NCBI GenBank assembly: GCA_902516395.1
Contig: CABXYN010000001.1
Location: 1-64,000, forward strand
Source of the DNA: an uncultured Pelagibacteraceae bacterium
GTDB taxonomy: Bacteria > Pseudomonadota > Alphaproteobacteria > Pelagibacterales > Pelagibacteraceae
Length of the DNA stretch: 64,000 nt
Direction of reading: 5' to 3'
Below the pieces are notes generated by a model. The model saw nothing but the letters and a program-made list of their open reading frames with translations. It was not told where the DNA came from and did not search any database. The position numbers and the translations under genes were made by a program. Below, piece after piece: positions 55,920-64,000 of the stretch (position 1 is its first letter; each line of letters starts with the position of its first letter).

Positions 55920-56201
55920 ATGAATTTTTATGTTTATATAATAATAACTAAGAGAAAAAGTAGATTTATTACTTATGTTGGATACACAATTAATATTAAA
56001 AGACGATTATTAGCACATAATTCATCTAAAGGAGCAAAATTTACTAGAGGAAATAAATGGTTTGTAATTTACAAGAAATCTTATAGTTCAAAGGTTATTG
56101 CTATGAAAGAGGAATATAAATTAAAAAAAAATTACAACTTAAGATCTAGAATTAAAAAAAAATATTTAAAAAATGAAAGTATCAATACTATTACCTTATA
56201 A
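55920..56201 (+). CDS. GIY-YIG domain protein (UvrC-N-like small nuclease family)
   Basis: MNFYVYIIITKR...YVGYTINIKRRLLAHNSSKGAKFTRG...YKKSYSSKVIAMKEEYKLKK. Confidence 0.85.
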   Translation: MNFYVYIIITKRKSRFITYVGYTINIKRRLLAHNSSKGAKFTRGNKWFVIYKKSYSSKVIAMKEEYKLKKNYNLRSRIKKKYLKNESINTITL

Positions 56202-58287
56202 AGAAAACTTCTCACCAGAGTATGCTGGTGCTGTGTCATTATTTGTAAAAGATACTGTAAAGATTAGTAATTATAAAAAAAATATCACTGTATATGGTAA
56301 CACTTCTTACAAAAAAGGTTTTAAAATTAAATATAAAAATTTAAATTTAAAAAAGAAGTTTTTAAACAGTACAAGTAAAATATACGTAAAATCATTTCTT
56401 AACGAAGAATTAAAAAATAACTCAGATATAATTGAGATTCACAATAGACCTCTATATGTAAAACCAATTGTAGATGTAATAAATTCTAAAATAATACTTT
56501 ATTATCATAACGACCCTCTGTCGATGAGTGGCTCAGAATCTGATGATGATAGAATGTATTTATTGAAAAAATGTGAATATATAATTGTCATTAGTGAATG
56601 GATAAAAAAAAGATTATTAAAAAATCTTAATGTTGACAATACTTTGTTGCAAAAAATACATGTTATTCCTCATTCAACAAAAAAAATTAAAAATTCAAAT
56701 TTAATAAACTCAAAAGAAAAAATAATTATATTTGTTGGTAAATTGAATTCTCAAAAGGGTTACGATATATTTGGTAATGTTATCATTAAGATTTTGAACA
56801 AAAACAATTCATGGAAAAGTGTAGTTGTTGGAGATGAGGAAAGAGAAAAGCTTACATTTAATCACAATAGATTAAATATAATGGGTTTCATTGAGCATAA
56901 CAAAGTATTAAAATTATTTGAAAAATCAAGTATTGCCGTTGTTCCTTCCAGATGGCAAGAACCACTTGGAAGAACTGGTTTGGAGGCTTCGAGTAGGGGA
57001 TGCGCAACTATTGTTAGCAACCGCGGTGGTCTTCCAGAAACAATAACCGATGGAATAATAATTAATAAATTAAATGAAAAAGAACTTTTTAAACAAATAC
57101 AATTACTTATTGATAATAAAAAATTGAGAAATAAATTACAAAAGCAATCAATTTTAAATTTTAAACTAGATCATGGAGTTATCGCAAAAAAAATTGATTT
57201 TGTAAGAGGTAAAATCGAAAAGAAATTCTGTTTTAGTATTAACAAAAAAAGTAAGCTAAAAATTTTACATATAACAAACTTTAATCAGAGATATTTTGGT
57301 AGGTTGCATTTTAATACTGGAACAAGAATTAATAATGGATTAATAAGACTTGGCCATAATATATTAAGTCTTTCAGATAGAGATTTAATTAACTTTTCAA
57401 AAACTTTTACAGATTATTCAGGTTCAAAATATCTCAATGATTTAGTATCGAAGACAATTGATAATTTTAAACCTGATATGATAATTTTAGGTCATGCAGA
57501 TAAAATTAAAAATGAAATGTTAAGTGATATGAAAAATAAATTTAAAAATCTTTATATAGCACAATGGTTTTTAGACCCCTTGTCTAGAAGAGGCCCTGAT
57601 TATGAGAAAAATAGATCAAGAATTCTTGATAAAATTAATTCCATAGATGCTTCATTTATTACGACTGATCCAAATTCATTAGATTTTAAAATTAATAATT
57701 CTTTTTATATTCCCAATCCTTGCGATTCTTCATTAGATAATCTTCAAAATTTTAATGAAAACCCAATCTTTGATATTTTTTATGCTATAAGTCATGGTGT
57801 ACATAGAGGCATTTTAAGAAAAGGTAAAAGTGATGAGAGAGAAATTTTTGTTAAGAAACTCCAAAAAAATTGTAAAAACATTAAATTTGATGTTTTTGGA
57901 ATGTTTAATAGACAGCCTGTATGGGGTGAAGAATTTATTTCTTGCTTATCTAATTCTAAAATGGGTCTAAATCTCAGTAGAGGTAAACCAATAAAATATT
58001 ATAGCAGCGATCGTATAGCACAACTTATGGGTAACGGATTATTGACATTTATTGACAAGGAAACGAGATACGATGATTTTTTTAAAAATGATGAAATGGT
58101 TTTTTATAAAAATATTGATGACCTGTCGGAAAAGATTAAAAAGTACAGCAGAGATATAAAAAACGCTAAAAAAATAGCAAGAAACGGTTATCTAAAATAC
58201 CATAAATATTTTAATTCAACTTTAGTTGCAAAGTACATAATAGATAGAACTATTGGAAATAATTCAAGTTTTTACTGGGATAAATAA
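56173..58287 (+). CDS. Two-domain glycosyltransferase: N-terminal GT4-like, C-terminal CgeB/GT1-like
   Basis: GRTGLEASSRGCATIVSNRGGLPETITDG in the N-half; second Rossmann-like unit from KLKILHITNFNQRYFGRLHFNTGTRINNGLIRLGHNI with RIAQLMGNGLLTFIDKETRYDDFF. Confidence 0.78.
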   Translation: MKVSILLPYKENFSPEYAGAVSLFVKDTVKISNYKKNITVYGNTSYKKGFKIKYKNLNLKKKFLNSTSKIYVKSFLNEELKNNSDIIEIHNRPLYVKPIVDVINSKIILYYHNDPLSMSGSESDDDRMYLLKKCEYIIVISEWIKKRLLKNLNVDNTLLQKIHVIPHSTKKIKNSNLINSKEKIIIFVGKLNSQKGYDIFGNVIIKILNKNNSWKSVVVGDEEREKLTFNHNRLNIMGFIEHNKVLKLFEKSSIAVVPSRWQEPLGRTGLEASSRGCATIVSNRGGLPETITDGIIINKLNEKELFKQIQLLIDNKKLRNKLQKQSILNFKLDHGVIAKKIDFVRGKIEKKFCFSINKKSKLKILHITNFNQRYFGRLHFNTGTRINNGLIRLGHNILSLSDRDLINFSKTFTDYSGSKYLNDLVSKTIDNFKPDMIILGHADKIKNEMLSDMKNKFKNLYIAQWFLDPLSRRGPDYEKNRSRILDKINSIDASFITTDPNSLDFKINNSFYIPNPCDSSLDNLQNFNENPIFDIFYAISHGVHRGILRKGKSDEREIFVKKLQKNCKNIKFDVFGMFNRQPVWGEEFISCLSNSKMGLNLSRGKPIKYYSSDRIAQLMGNGLLTFIDKETRYDDFFKNDEMVFYKNIDDLSEKIKKYSRDIKNAKKIARNGYLKYHKYFNSTLVAKYIIDRTIGNNSSFYWDK

Positions 58288-59268
58288 ATGAAAATTTGTT
58301 TTATTGATAAAACAGAATTTTCATATTCTTTTAAAGATATAAACTCAAGTAAATTAAGAGGAGCAGAGTCAATTATTATTAATTTATCTAAAGAAGTTAG
58401 CAATTTAGGACATGAGGTATTTGTTTTTAATAATTGTGATTATGAATATAAATCAAAGAACTATACATGGTTACATATAGATAGGATTAATAAATTATTT
58501 AAATTTGATGTTGTGGTTGCAAACGGTGATTGTAATTTTTTTAATCTTACAGATTCAAAAAATAATATTTTAATATCACATAGCAATCAGCCATTAGAGC
58601 AATTTTTAAGAAAAAGACAGCTATTCTCTTATTTAAAATTCAGACCCAAAATATGGATGACGAGTAAATATCAGATTGAAAAAAGATCGTCATTAATTAA
58701 ATTATTTGGACAAATGTTTATACCATGGTCAGTAGATAAAATATTTCTAGAGTCGAAAATTGATAACAATATTAACTCTAATCAAGCCATTTTCTCATCA
58801 AGACCTGATAGGAACCTTAATACTTTAATTTATATGTGGGAAAATTTAATTAATCCTAAATTAAGAGGGAAGAAATTAATCATTTATGGACATAGTAAAA
58901 AAATAAATCAATCCAATATTATAAATAAAGGATTTGTTACACAAAATGAACTTGTGAATGATTTAAAAAGTTCAAGATTATTTCTAATTCCAGGGCATAA
59001 AGCTGAAACATTTTGTTTAGCCGCTGAAGAGGCTAAGGAGTTATGTATACCAATCGTAACTCTCGGGATAGGTTGTCTTTCTGAAAGAGTTGAGCATGGA
59101 ATAACTGGCTTTATTGCAAAAAATAAAAATGAGTTTAGTGATTATACAATCAAACTCTTTAATGATGATCAACTTTGGATGAATTTAAGAAAAAATTTGA
59201 TTAGAATTAGAGGTGAAAATAATTGGATAAAAATAGCAAATACTTTTATATCCAAAGTATATGAATAA
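58288..59268 (+). CDS. Glycosyltransferase (GT4-like)
   Basis: LRGAESIIINLSKEVSNLGHEVFVFNN; PGHKAETFCLAAEEAKELCIPIVTLGIGCLSERVEHGITGFI. Confidence 0.75.
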   Translation: MKICFIDKTEFSYSFKDINSSKLRGAESIIINLSKEVSNLGHEVFVFNNCDYEYKSKNYTWLHIDRINKLFKFDVVVANGDCNFFNLTDSKNNILISHSNQPLEQFLRKRQLFSYLKFRPKIWMTSKYQIEKRSSLIKLFGQMFIPWSVDKIFLESKIDNNINSNQAIFSSRPDRNLNTLIYMWENLINPKLRGKKLIIYGHSKKINQSNIINKGFVTQNELVNDLKSSRLFLIPGHKAETFCLAAEEAKELCIPIVTLGIGCLSERVEHGITGFIAKNKNEFSDYTIKLFNDDQLWMNLRKNLIRIRGENNWIKIANTFISKVYE

Positions 59269-60277
59269 AATTTTAATTTTAAAAAATGATAGGGCTGGTG
59301 ATTTAATGACATCCTTGAAATTAATATCTTCTCTGAATTATAATAATAAGCTGAAAATTTATTTATCAGAATTAAATAATGGGTTTTCTTTTTTTTTTAA
59401 AAATATCAATACTGAAAAGATTAATTTTAATTTAGATATAAAAGATAAAATCAAGATTTTTTTTGATTTGTATAAAAATTCTTATGATGAGGTATATATA
59501 TTAACTCCAAAAAGCTTCTACTTTTTTTTACCATTATTTTTTAGAAGAGTAAAATTCTACTCAATTGTATATAACAATAAAAGAAATAGACCTATTAACT
59601 GGTTAAGAAAGTTTTTATTCAAATATAGAATAATTTATAGAAATAAAATTAATATATCTAGCTACAGAGATATCCAGCTAGAATTATTAGATAAAAAGGA
59701 TAATATCGATAATGATTTTTCAAATATATGTGTACCAAAGATTTCGCGTAAATTATATAATATAATTCCAAAACAATTTCTTTTTTTTCAATTTAGATAC
59801 CTTTTTTTTTTAAAGCTAGGGTGGGGCTTGGATGAATTTAATTTATTAATGAATAAATTGCTCTCAAAATATGAAAATATCCTTTTTTCATCTGATAATG
59901 AGAAAAATGATGAAATATTGGAATTCAATAAGCATTTTGAAGAAAATTATTCTATAATAGATACGAATAAATATTTTAGTAAAATTAATAATACAAATAA
60001 GAAGATTTTTTATCTTAAGAATATAAATGCTGAAAATTTATTTCTTATTTGTAAAGAGTCTAAAATGAATCTAGCAAAAGAGGGTATAATTAGCCATATC
60101 TCTTATTTTCATAATGTTAAGTGTCATAATCTTTTTAATTTTCAAATTAATTCATTTGATGACTATAAGTTTCAAAAAATAAGTTATTCTGAATGGTCTA
60201 AAGGAATGAATATAAGTTTTTCGTTTTTAAATTCAAGTATTGAAAAATCAATAAAAAAAATTTTACGTAATGTATAA
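59261..60277 (+). CDS. Putative GT9 (heptosyltransferase)-like glycosyltransferase, diverged
   Basis: N-terminal MNKILILKNDRAGDLMTSLKLISSL resembles the GT9 (ADP-heptose:LPS heptosyltransferase) start; weak elsewhere. Confidence 0.5.
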   Translation: MNKILILKNDRAGDLMTSLKLISSLNYNNKLKIYLSELNNGFSFFFKNINTEKINFNLDIKDKIKIFFDLYKNSYDEVYILTPKSFYFFLPLFFRRVKFYSIVYNNKRNRPINWLRKFLFKYRIIYRNKINISSYRDIQLELLDKKDNIDNDFSNICVPKISRKLYNIIPKQFLFFQFRYLFFLKLGWGLDEFNLLMNKLLSKYENILFSSDNEKNDEILEFNKHFEENYSIIDTNKYFSKINNTNKKIFYLKNINAENLFLICKESKMNLAKEGIISHISYFHNVKCHNLFNFQINSFDDYKFQKISYSEWSKGMNISFSFLNSSIEKSIKKILRNV

Positions 60278-60279
60278 AT

Positions 60280-61029
60280 ATGAAAGATAAACTTTTAGAA
60301 CGAATTAATAGGATTTTAAGATTTTTAATGTCTGATGATTATAAAGGAAGTCATAAATATCAAAATAAAAATCAAATTACAAACCGATACATAATAACAA
60401 AATTACTTAAAGATAAAAGATTTATACCAAAAAATATTGTTGATGTTGGTTGTGGATATGGTGAATGGACAAAAGTTTTGTTAGATAAATTTCCATCATC
60501 AACATATTATTTGTTTGATGCAAACAAAAATAATGAAAAACATCTTAAGGACTTAACTAAAAACAAAGATAATTTACATTATAAAATATGTTTACTGTCT
60601 GATAAAATAAGCAATTATAAATTTTTCAGCATGGGGACAGGATCCTCAATTTACGAGGAAAATACCAATCATCCAAGGATAGTTATGGATATGACATCCT
60701 CAACCTTAAAAAAAGAGCTAAATTATGAACTTTCTAATTTTAAGAATAATTTAATAAAATTAGACGTTCAAGGTTCAGAATTAAAAGTTTTGGATGGTTT
60801 AGGTGATTTAATTGATAATTTTGAGGTAATAATTTTAGAAGTCTCTTTGCATGAATACAATAAAGGAGCTCCCTTATTCATTGATATTATTAATTATATG
60901 AAGGGAAAAAATTTTAAATTATATGATTTATTTGACTTTAAAAGATTAGGTCAAGAAAAATCATTCTTATTACAGTTTGATTGTATTTTTGTAAATCAAA
61001 AGTCTAATTTATTGAATGTTAATTTTTAA
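60280..61029 (+). CDS. FkbM-family SAM-dependent methyltransferase
   Basis: IVDVGCGYGEWTKVLLDKFPSSTYYLFDAN; LIKLDVQGSELKVLDGLGDLIDNFEVIILEVSL. Confidence 0.82.
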   Translation: MKDKLLERINRILRFLMSDDYKGSHKYQNKNQITNRYIITKLLKDKRFIPKNIVDVGCGYGEWTKVLLDKFPSSTYYLFDANKNNEKHLKDLTKNKDNLHYKICLLSDKISNYKFFSMGTGSSIYEENTNHPRIVMDMTSSTLKKELNYELSNFKNNLIKLDVQGSELKVLDGLGDLIDNFEVIILEVSLHEYNKGAPLFIDIINYMKGKNFKLYDLFDFKRLGQEKSFLLQFDCIFVNQKSNLLNVNF

Positions 61030-61046
61030 ATTTTTTTAAATAATTT

Positions 61047-62102
61047 ATGATTATAACTAATTTAATTAAAGTTATTTTTATCAATTTTTTAATTTTATTT
61101 ATAGGAATTTTTATCATTGAATTAATTTTTGGTAATTGGTTTAATAATAAAAATCTAAGTAATTTATTACTTAGTATTGATAAGCACAGATTGATATCGA
61201 ACCTACCATATAAATCTGATAAACCAGCCTTGTATACCACTGACTCCAATGGTTTTAGAGCCAATAAGCATGAGTTGTCTCAAATAGATATATTAATTAT
61301 AGGAGGCAGCACTACAGAGCAAAAACTTATAGATGATAATTTAATATGGACTAAAATCTTAGAAAAAAATTTAAATTCTGATAATTTTTCCTACACTTTA
61401 AATGCTGGTATTGGAGGTCAAACATCATTTGGTCATGTCAGAATATTTGATTTATGGCTTTCTAGGTTTGAGAAACTTAATCCCAAAATTATAATAATTT
61501 ATATTGGTATAAATGATGCACTTTTCATGATTGAAAATATTGATGATAACATTGATTATGATAAAGGAAGGTTAATGAGTAATAAAAATCGCGATTTTCT
61601 TGAAATTGAAAATAGAATTGAAAATTACTTTCAATTCCTTAAAAATAATAGTGCGATCATATTATTTTTTAAAATGATAAATGGAAATTTAATCTCCTTG
61701 AAATATGATTTTGGATACTTTAAAAAACCATTTATTTTTGAAACTCCAACAAAAACTATTGATACAATTGAACTAAAAGTTGATAATAAACAAATATTAA
61801 ACTATTTGAAAAAGTATCAAAATAATCTAATTGAATTAAATAAAATAATAGTTAAATCTAAAGCTGTACCTATATTTGTTACACAAAATGTTTCTTCAAA
61901 TCATTGGATAAAAAAATATTTATATATTATCAATAATGAGACGACAAATTACTGTAATTCAACAAATACTATTTGTTTTGATCTTGCTAGTGAACTTTAT
62001 TTAGATGATGAAGATTTTTATGATGGTATACATAATAATCCTTCAGGCTCAAAGAAGGTGGCAGATTATTTATATAAAAAACTTGAAAATTTGAATAATT
62101 AA
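61047..62102 (+). CDS. Membrane-anchored SGNH/GDSL-type hydrolase
   Basis: N-terminal TM; ILIIGGSTTEQ (block I-like), IIYIGINDALF (GxND), YDGIHNNPSGSKKVADYL (DxxH). Confidence 0.78.
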   Translation: MIITNLIKVIFINFLILFIGIFIIELIFGNWFNNKNLSNLLLSIDKHRLISNLPYKSDKPALYTTDSNGFRANKHELSQIDILIIGGSTTEQKLIDDNLIWTKILEKNLNSDNFSYTLNAGIGGQTSFGHVRIFDLWLSRFEKLNPKIIIIYIGINDALFMIENIDDNIDYDKGRLMSNKNRDFLEIENRIENYFQFLKNNSAIILFFKMINGNLISLKYDFGYFKKPFIFETPTKTIDTIELKVDNKQILNYLKKYQNNLIELNKIIVKSKAVPIFVTQNVSSNHWIKKYLYIINNETTNYCNSTNTICFDLASELYLDDEDFYDGIHNNPSGSKKVADYLYKKLENLNN

Positions 62103-62111
62103 TAGATATTA

Positions 62112-63029
62112 TTAAAATTTAATATTATTTAATGCATTATTTTTAAATAAATTTGCCTCTTGTATATATCTTCTAACCATTTGTGTTGTTTTGTGACCTG
62201 TCATAGCCATAATGTTACGCTCCTCTGCACCTGCCTCAGCTGCGGACGTAGCAAATCCTGATCTTAAACTATGGCCGCCATACATATTTGGATCTAAACC
62301 TGATAACGATGCATATTTTTTTATTATTAGTGAAACAGACTTATCAGATATATTAAAAATTTTTCCCTTATTTATTTTAAAATATTCTATCCATTCTTTA
62401 AGTTTAATTACTGGGCAATATTCTGAATTTTTAAAATAGGGGATGCCTTTTATGCTCCCTTCTCCAATTTGGTCTGTTTTTGACCTTTTTATAAATATTT
62501 TTAGCCCTTCGTTAACAAATTCTAGGTCTTCATATTCTATACTTACAAGTTCAGACCTTCTAAACCCGCCTGAAAATCCCAATAATAATAATGATTTATC
62601 TCTAATCTTTTTAAATTCTTTATTTTCATGCTTATCTATAGCTTTAAGAATTAATTTTAAACTATTGATTAATAATGGTTTTTTTGCAATTTGTCGCGAC
62701 CCATTAATTCGTTTTATTCCTAATAAATTTTCTATGATAATTGGATGTTTAGTGTCTAAATAATGCCCTTTTATTTTATGAACAACTTTTATTGAGGCTA
62801 TTCTTCTTTTTAATGTACTAAATTTACTTATTTTAGACATGTGCGTTAAGTATAAAGATAGAATTTTTGGCTCAGTAGGAAGAGCATTTAACCCATTTTT
62901 TATGCAAAATAATCTAAAATGTTTAAAGTCTGAGTCGTAGGCTCTAACAGTATTATTTGACTTAGAGTTTTTAAGATTTCTAATTGTCTCTAATTCAAGT
63001 GATTTTACATCTGTAACTATATCATTCAT
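62112..63029 (-). CDS. Tyrosine recombinase / site-specific integrase (ORF extends to ATG at 63047; ATG at 63029 also possible)
   Basis: Catalytic R in GFSGGFRRSELVSIEYEDL, HSLRSGF, GHKTTQMVRRYIQ; N-terminal SAM-like core-binding domain. Confidence 0.93.
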   Translation of the reverse strand: MNDIVTDVKSLELETIRNLKNSKSNNTVRAYDSDFKHFRLFCIKNGLNALPTEPKILSLYLTHMSKISKFSTLKRRIASIKVVHKIKGHYLDTKHPIIIENLLGIKRINGSRQIAKKPLLINSLKLILKAIDKHENKEFKKIRDKSLLLLGFSGGFRRSELVSIEYEDLEFVNEGLKIFIKRSKTDQIGEGSIKGIPYFKNSEYCPVIKLKEWIEYFKINKGKIFNISDKSVSLIIKKYASLSGLDPNMYGGHSLRSGFATSAAEAGAEERNIMAMTGHKTTQMVRRYIQEANLFKNNALNNIKF

Positions 63030-63065
63030 ATTATTTCCGATAACCATTAATTATCGGAAATAATA
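63029..63065. repeat. Perfect 15-bp inverted repeat, 7-bp spacer (TATTATTTCCGATAA CCATTAA TTATCGGAAATAATA); candidate recombinase core site or operator
   Basis: Read directly; left arm 63029-63043 is the exact reverse complement of right arm 63051-63065. Confidence 0.9.
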
Positions 63066-63112
63066 ATATAACACATTTTACAAGTCAAGCATTTAATGTA
63101 AAAAGAATCTTA

Positions 63113-63757: not shown

Positions 63758-63864
63758 AGCTTTAGATTAACTTATCCCCACTATTCAACCCTGTGAAAAA
63801 CTAAGTATATTCAACGATAAAGTGATACATACAACCTACCCTATCTGATATTGTCTTAAATGAA

Positions 63865-64000
63865 TTAAGAGGCAACTCTTAACTGACCATCTGGGGAAAA
63901 ACCGAGAGGTTCAAGCCCAGAGGGCAGAAAGCCTTGCAGAGTAGCGCTAAAATTGTAGGGTGGAAGGCATGGCGGTAGCGCATACAACGACGTGCCAAAA
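63865..64000 (+). ncRNA. Putative structured RNA, family unidentified, truncated by the window end
   Basis: 63/120 G+C at 63881-64000 in an AT-rich context; hairpins TTAAGAG-GCAA-CTCTTAA (63865-63882), TCTGGG...CCCAGA (63890-63921) enclosing AACC-GAGA-GGTT (63900-63911), GGCATG...CGTGCC (63966-63996). Confidence 0.4.

Follow-up and report, generated by a model that had tools for sequence, protein, structure and literature searches.

The window analysed here, a stretch of 64,000 nucleotides from an uncultured Pelagibacteraceae bacterium, carries near its end a minus-strand tyrosine recombinase gene whose 5' end is overlapped by a long palindrome. The relatives of this window are single-cell genomes and isolates of the Pelagibacteraceae (SAR11). 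On one side of the gene lies a plus-strand block (56173-62102) of glycosyltransferase-like, FkbM methyltransferase and GDSL-lipase genes, which resembles a variable island and reaches right up to the recombinase, i.e. to the presumed replication terminus. An IMES-2 RNA (RF02035, 163 bits) occupies 63858-63998 of the plus strand, approximately 0.8 kb from the palindrome. Among 20 further loci the same motif accompanies the recombinase in 10, from 9 distinct genomes, each within the type A clade; IMES-2 is a marine RNA motif that is not known to have a function. The features at the recombinase locus are as follows.

62112-63029, minus strand: single Xer-like tyrosine recombinase of 305 aa when counted from the conserved start and 311 aa when counted from the ATG at 63047, with catalytic residues R157, K184, H253, R256, H279 and Y288
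63029-63065, no strand assigned: 15-7-15 palindrome, putative dif-type recombination core site, with arms at 63029-63043 and 63051-63065 and the spacer at 63044-63050
63035-63059, minus strand: conserved 25-bp core TTCCGATAA-TTAATGG-TTATCGGAA (9-7-9), almost unchanged among orthologous loci and present once per genome
63060-63065, minus strand: putative -10 box TATTAT, which overlaps the upstream arm at its outer edge
63083-63088, minus strand: putative -35 box of the recombinase gene, TTGACT here and TTGACA in most orthologues

The first-pass annotation of this DNA had described a perfect 15-7-15 palindrome over the recombinase start. Inspection of the sequence confirmed that TATTATTTCCGATAA-CCATTAA-TTATCGGAAATAATA is a perfect inverted repeat of this geometry occupying exactly 63029-63065. 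When a 27-bp core pattern was searched with up to three mismatches, it matched once in the window and never in 100 dinucleotide shuffles, and a single match was obtained in the whole assembly. The palindrome is thus real and far beyond chance expectation.

The window recombinase matches the Phage_integrase family at 3e-18, and its catalytic residues listed above are invariant in alignments A1 and A2. The XerD, XerC, XerA and XerS models of NCBIfam match the protein at low scores (XerD 73 bits against a cut-off of 329.6, XerC 69 against 335 and XerS 53 against 267). Because these scores fall far below the cut-offs, the enzyme is not an orthologue of XerC, XerD or XerS. An AlphaFold model of moderate confidence (mean pLDDT 73) has a predicted fold that matches Cre first and XerH bound to difH second. 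In a phylogenetic tree the SAR11 proteins stand apart from XerC and XerD and beside plasmid and alphaproteobacterial integrases; several branches of this tree are long and its details are unsure.

Orthologous loci, to which the first-pass annotation had pointed as a check, do keep the palindrome. It occurs at nearly the same place in approximately 90 of them (protein identity 70-84%), where the near-invariant core upstream of the gene reads TTCCGATAA-TTAATGG-TTATCGGAA on the gene strand. Across 100 distinct contexts, 21 of the 25 core positions show no variation and the remaining four are at least 96% conserved, with the asymmetric spacer included in this count, and the sequence flanking the core varies. 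Since the core is constant and the flanks vary among relatives, the long arms of this window represent the conserved 9-bp arm extended by AT-rich flank. The proposed tyrosine recombinase core-site geometry is therefore borne out, as a conserved 9-7-9 core that is lengthened to 15-7-15 here. A second clade of the same recombinase (approximately 65% identity, 325 aa) carries the site TTACTAAYGATAA-TTAATKG-TTATCAATAGTAA at the same place. Both outer arms have been altered together in this clade, with the inner GATAA/TTATC and the TTAAT-G spacer kept. Such a combination of joint change and retention is what one would expect of arms recognised by two recombinase protomers and of a spacer that serves as the strand-exchange region.

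The same alignments bear on the start of the gene. An ATG at 63047 does lie inside the spacer and an in-frame ATG at 63029 at the outer edge, as previously noted. The spacer ATG is not in the reading frame of the gene in the majority of orthologues, where it stands 19 nt before the conserved start as against 18 nt here. For this reason 63047 was rejected as the gene start, and the true start is probably 63029. The earlier idea that recombination might switch the promoter or start of the gene also finds no support, as the spacer ATG is not a conserved start and none of 397 genomes has two copies of the site.

Copy number and gene linkage were evaluated in 397 genomes of the order using the inner 17-mer GATAATTAATKGTTATC as the query. 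This 17-mer is present in 272 genomes, exactly once in each, with no match for the reversed control; the second copy for which a search of this and related genomes had been suggested was found neither in the assembly nor in any of the 397. The recombinase is present in 284 genomes, and all 272 site-bearing genomes are among them. Subtracting the 12 recombinase genomes that lack the exact 17-mer (G007, G072, G163, G164, G186, G255, G269, G300, G339, G382, G385 and G389) from 284 leaves 272, so no genome carries the site without the gene. One-base variants of the site occur in several of these 12. The site lies approximately 30 bp from the gene start. In one genome (G200:C4:50751-50767) the 17-mer is found on the opposite strand relative to the recombinase gene, i.e. 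with an inverted spacer, which is possibly the trace of a recombination event. Of 11 single-contig Pelagibacteraceae genomes, 8 encode no Phage_integrase-family protein other than this recombinase, and no other Xer genes were found in the closed genomes. The sister family in the order has neither the SAR11 recombinase nor the site and mostly encodes two strong Phage_integrase-family proteins per genome, of the XerC/XerD type. These results establish the recombinase as a clade-wide core gene rather than a mobile integrase. Gene and site are both missing from approximately 60 draft Pelagibacteraceae genomes, one of which, G032, has an estimated completeness of 99%; assembly gaps near a variable region and true loss both fit. 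High-completeness drafts such as G032, G054, G103 and G120 gave no Phage_integrase-family match at all, which may reflect an assembly gap at the terminus or genuine loss.

The position of the site on the chromosome was analysed through GC skew in five single-contig genomes, with 400 kb sampled in each and G009 sampled more densely. The half-chromosome skew difference is maximal 5-35 kb from the site in all five closed genomes; the discrimination is modest, with 1.7-4.8% of positions per genome scoring as well as the site. In G009, for which a contiguous 400 kb was available, the maximum of the cumulative GC skew falls 1,062 bp away from the site and the turning point of the T-A skew 927 bp away. 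The prevailing gene direction also reverses at the site, from 91% of genes running one way in the preceding 50 kb to 25% beyond it. Cumulative skew in the window is likewise highest at its end, near the site. A short 200-kb version of the skew test failed for G013. Fits to gene-wise GC3 skew in which origin and terminus were left free proved noisy, putting the terminus as much as 250 kb away in some genomes, whereas the plain half-chromosome difference was consistent across genomes. Skew shifts have served to recognise dif sites (PMC2731167). FtsK with a gamma domain is encoded in every closed Pelagibacteraceae genome tested, and a search for KOPS-like FtsK-orienting motifs returned nothing convincing. 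With a clade-wide core gene beside it and a location at the replication terminus, the site behaves as a dif.

These distributions also bear on the suggestion that the palindrome is the enzyme's own recombination or excision site. Its ownership by the adjacent recombinase is supported; a role in excision or at an island boundary is not. An attachment or excision site of a mobile island with its own integrase would agree with the relatives of the protein, which are plasmid or mobile-element integrases, and with the glycan-biosynthesis variable region that the gene abuts in this window. It does not agree with the occurrence of the gene in 284 of the 397 genomes, often with no other tyrosine recombinase beside it, with the lack of any genome bearing two copies or with the terminus location, and we regard this explanation as very improbable.

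The site overlaps what appears to be the recombinase's own promoter. A predicted TTGACA / TATAAT-like promoter is conserved at a fixed distance, and its -10 box touches or overlaps the outer edge of the upstream arm. Autoregulation is a natural and plausible reading of this arrangement: because of the overlap, recombinase bound at the site would probably also repress its own gene. The palindrome could in principle be purely an operator, at which a recombinase dimer represses the promoter with no recombination taking place there. The promoter overlap would be accounted for in this manner, yet the almost invariant asymmetric spacer, the terminus location, the single copy per genome and the published recombination of the same arms by IntA would all be left unexplained. 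An operator as the sole role is accordingly disfavoured and in our judgement unlikely; the operator function proposed earlier is probably a second role of the same site.

Folding of the palindrome region as RNA gave a strong predicted hairpin (z = -5.4), which raises the alternative of a terminator or translational attenuator. An intrinsic terminator, with a GC-rich stem followed by a U-run, was rejected after a terminator scan at the palindrome found no terminator-like site and no U-tract was present. The predicted promoter would moreover start transcription inside the palindrome, the spacer that would form the loop is conserved in sequence, and similar sites occur in viruses and plasmids beside unrelated genes. 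A function as an RNA hairpin is hardly credible against these observations.

We conclude that the palindrome is very probably a dif-type core site on the chromosome, belonging to an Xer-like system with a single recombinase by which the Pelagibacteraceae would resolve chromosome dimers at the terminus, a reading built on comparative sequence data. According to this model, one recombinase protomer would bind each 9-13 bp arm (...GATAA / TTATC...), and two sites on a dimeric chromosome would synapse and exchange strands across the 7-bp spacer, whose asymmetry would set the orientation of exchange. Through this exchange the dimer would be separated into monomers at the terminus of replication, with FtsK probably in control.

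SAR11 bacteria count among the sea's most abundant cell types and are a textbook case of genome streamlining. A 2009 survey reported Pelagibacter to be without a dif/Xer system, and this supposed loss was taken to mean that small free-living genomes can do without the system (PMC2731167). A recognisable SAR11 dif with its recombinase reverses that reading. The site additionally provides a marker for the SAR11 replication terminus, and the finding suggests how a plasmid-type recombinase replaced XerC/D. It also makes any exploitation of the host dimer-resolution enzyme by abundant pelagiphages directly testable.

Sites of this kind are frequent in viral sequences. The host-type 17-mer occurs in 29 IMG/VR contigs, about two-thirds of which have further dif-like arm sequence, and TTCCGATAA-N7-TTATCGGAA was detected in at least 120 viral stretches as against 2 for the reversed control. 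Among the matches listed, 13 of 117 viral contigs with this pattern encode a recombinase of this type, within approximately 120 bp of the site in 12 of the 13, and about 60 of the 117 encode an HTVC010P-type terminase, with the site mostly 300-600 bp upstream of it. A peptide-pattern search of viral contigs for the SAR11 recombinase itself returned none. The commonest viral spacers among the matches listed (TTAAACG, TTAAATG, TTAATCG and TTAATTG) are close to the host TTAATGG and TTAATTG. Type B sites were found in 23 viral stretches, often adjoining a type A site or half-site; at loci such as L370, L395, L433 and L397-L409, HTVC010P-type pelagiphages carry dif-like sites ahead of the large terminase gene, often as a pair made up of one type A and one type B site and mostly with no integrase. 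Dif-like palindromes precede the terminase by 330-450 bp in six of 12 phage isolates, and HTVC100P carries two at a greater distance upstream; HTVC203P and HTVC204P show a bare GATAA-N7-TTATC within this pre-terminase stretch. The spacers of the isolates differ from the host spacer. Phages related to HTVC010P have been classed as lytic for lacking an integrase (PMC6811365); among the twelve isolates a recognisable integrase was found only in HTVC028P, which has no dif-like site. We tentatively suggest that HTVC010P-type pelagiphages, which are abundant in the ocean, may carry mimics of the SAR11 dif shortly before the large terminase gene, often as type A and B pairs matching the two host recombinase types, and may use the host Xer to integrate at dif or to process their genomes. 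No pelagiphage integrated at dif was seen, and terminase-bearing stretches in seven SAR11 assemblies had no convincing dif-like site just upstream of the terminase.

Single-recombinase dif/Xer systems are a known kind, represented by XerS, XerH and XerL. Like the SAR11 system, XerS/difSL of streptococci and lactococci and XerH/difH of Helicobacter and Campylobacter combine one recombinase with a site beside its gene, a terminus location, inverted arms and a short central region (PMC5357621, PMC2731167). They differ in that the SAR11 arms are near-perfect palindromes of another sequence, the SAR11 site overlaps a promoter and the SAR11 proteins are shorter (approximately 305-325 aa versus approximately 355 aa), with the low XerS model score given above. 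XerL/dif of Legionellales was overlooked because neither XerC/D homologues nor a dif had been recognised (PMC9765430). As described, it resembles the SAR11 system in its single recombinase, its uninterrupted inverted arms and its exploitation by a mobile element, whereas gene and site are adjacent in SAR11 and separated by more than 400 kb in Legionella (PMC9765430). Cre/loxP is likewise a single recombinase with palindromic arms and an asymmetric spacer, and has the closest solved fold to the predicted model; it differs in its 13-8-13 site, its residence on the phage P1 plasmid prophage and its identity of approximately 17%.

The same arms are found in Rhizobium etli, where IntA recombines the 23-bp att site TCCGATAAGCATTACTTATCGGA in vivo and in vitro (PMC4928290). 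The attA and attD sites of p42a and p42d have the arms TCCGATAA / TTATCGGA around a 7-bp spacer, identical in arms and spacer length to the type A SAR11 site; a near-copy lies 127 bp upstream of intA, and the type A site likewise presents TCCGATAA-N7-TTATCGGA near its gene. IntA is a distant homologue of the SAR11 recombinase (23% identity, pairwise E = 1e-20). Unlike the SAR11 enzyme, a single-copy chromosomal gene product in most Pelagibacteraceae, IntA (382 aa) is plasmid-borne and mediates plasmid cointegration rather than acting at a chromosome terminus. GATAA-N6/7-TTATC palindromes also stand beside the genes of plasmid relatives in Niallia, Protochlamydia, Sporosarcina and Iodobacter and of several alphaproteobacterial relatives; the distant relatives with such palindromes extend to other phyla. 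Because IntA, these plasmid and alphaproteobacterial relatives and 12 of the 13 recombinase-encoding viral contigs pair gene with site, the palindrome goes with this type of recombinase. Plasmid or mobile-element recombinases of the IntA type are the probable source of the SAR11 gene-site module, which probably took the place of XerC/XerD.
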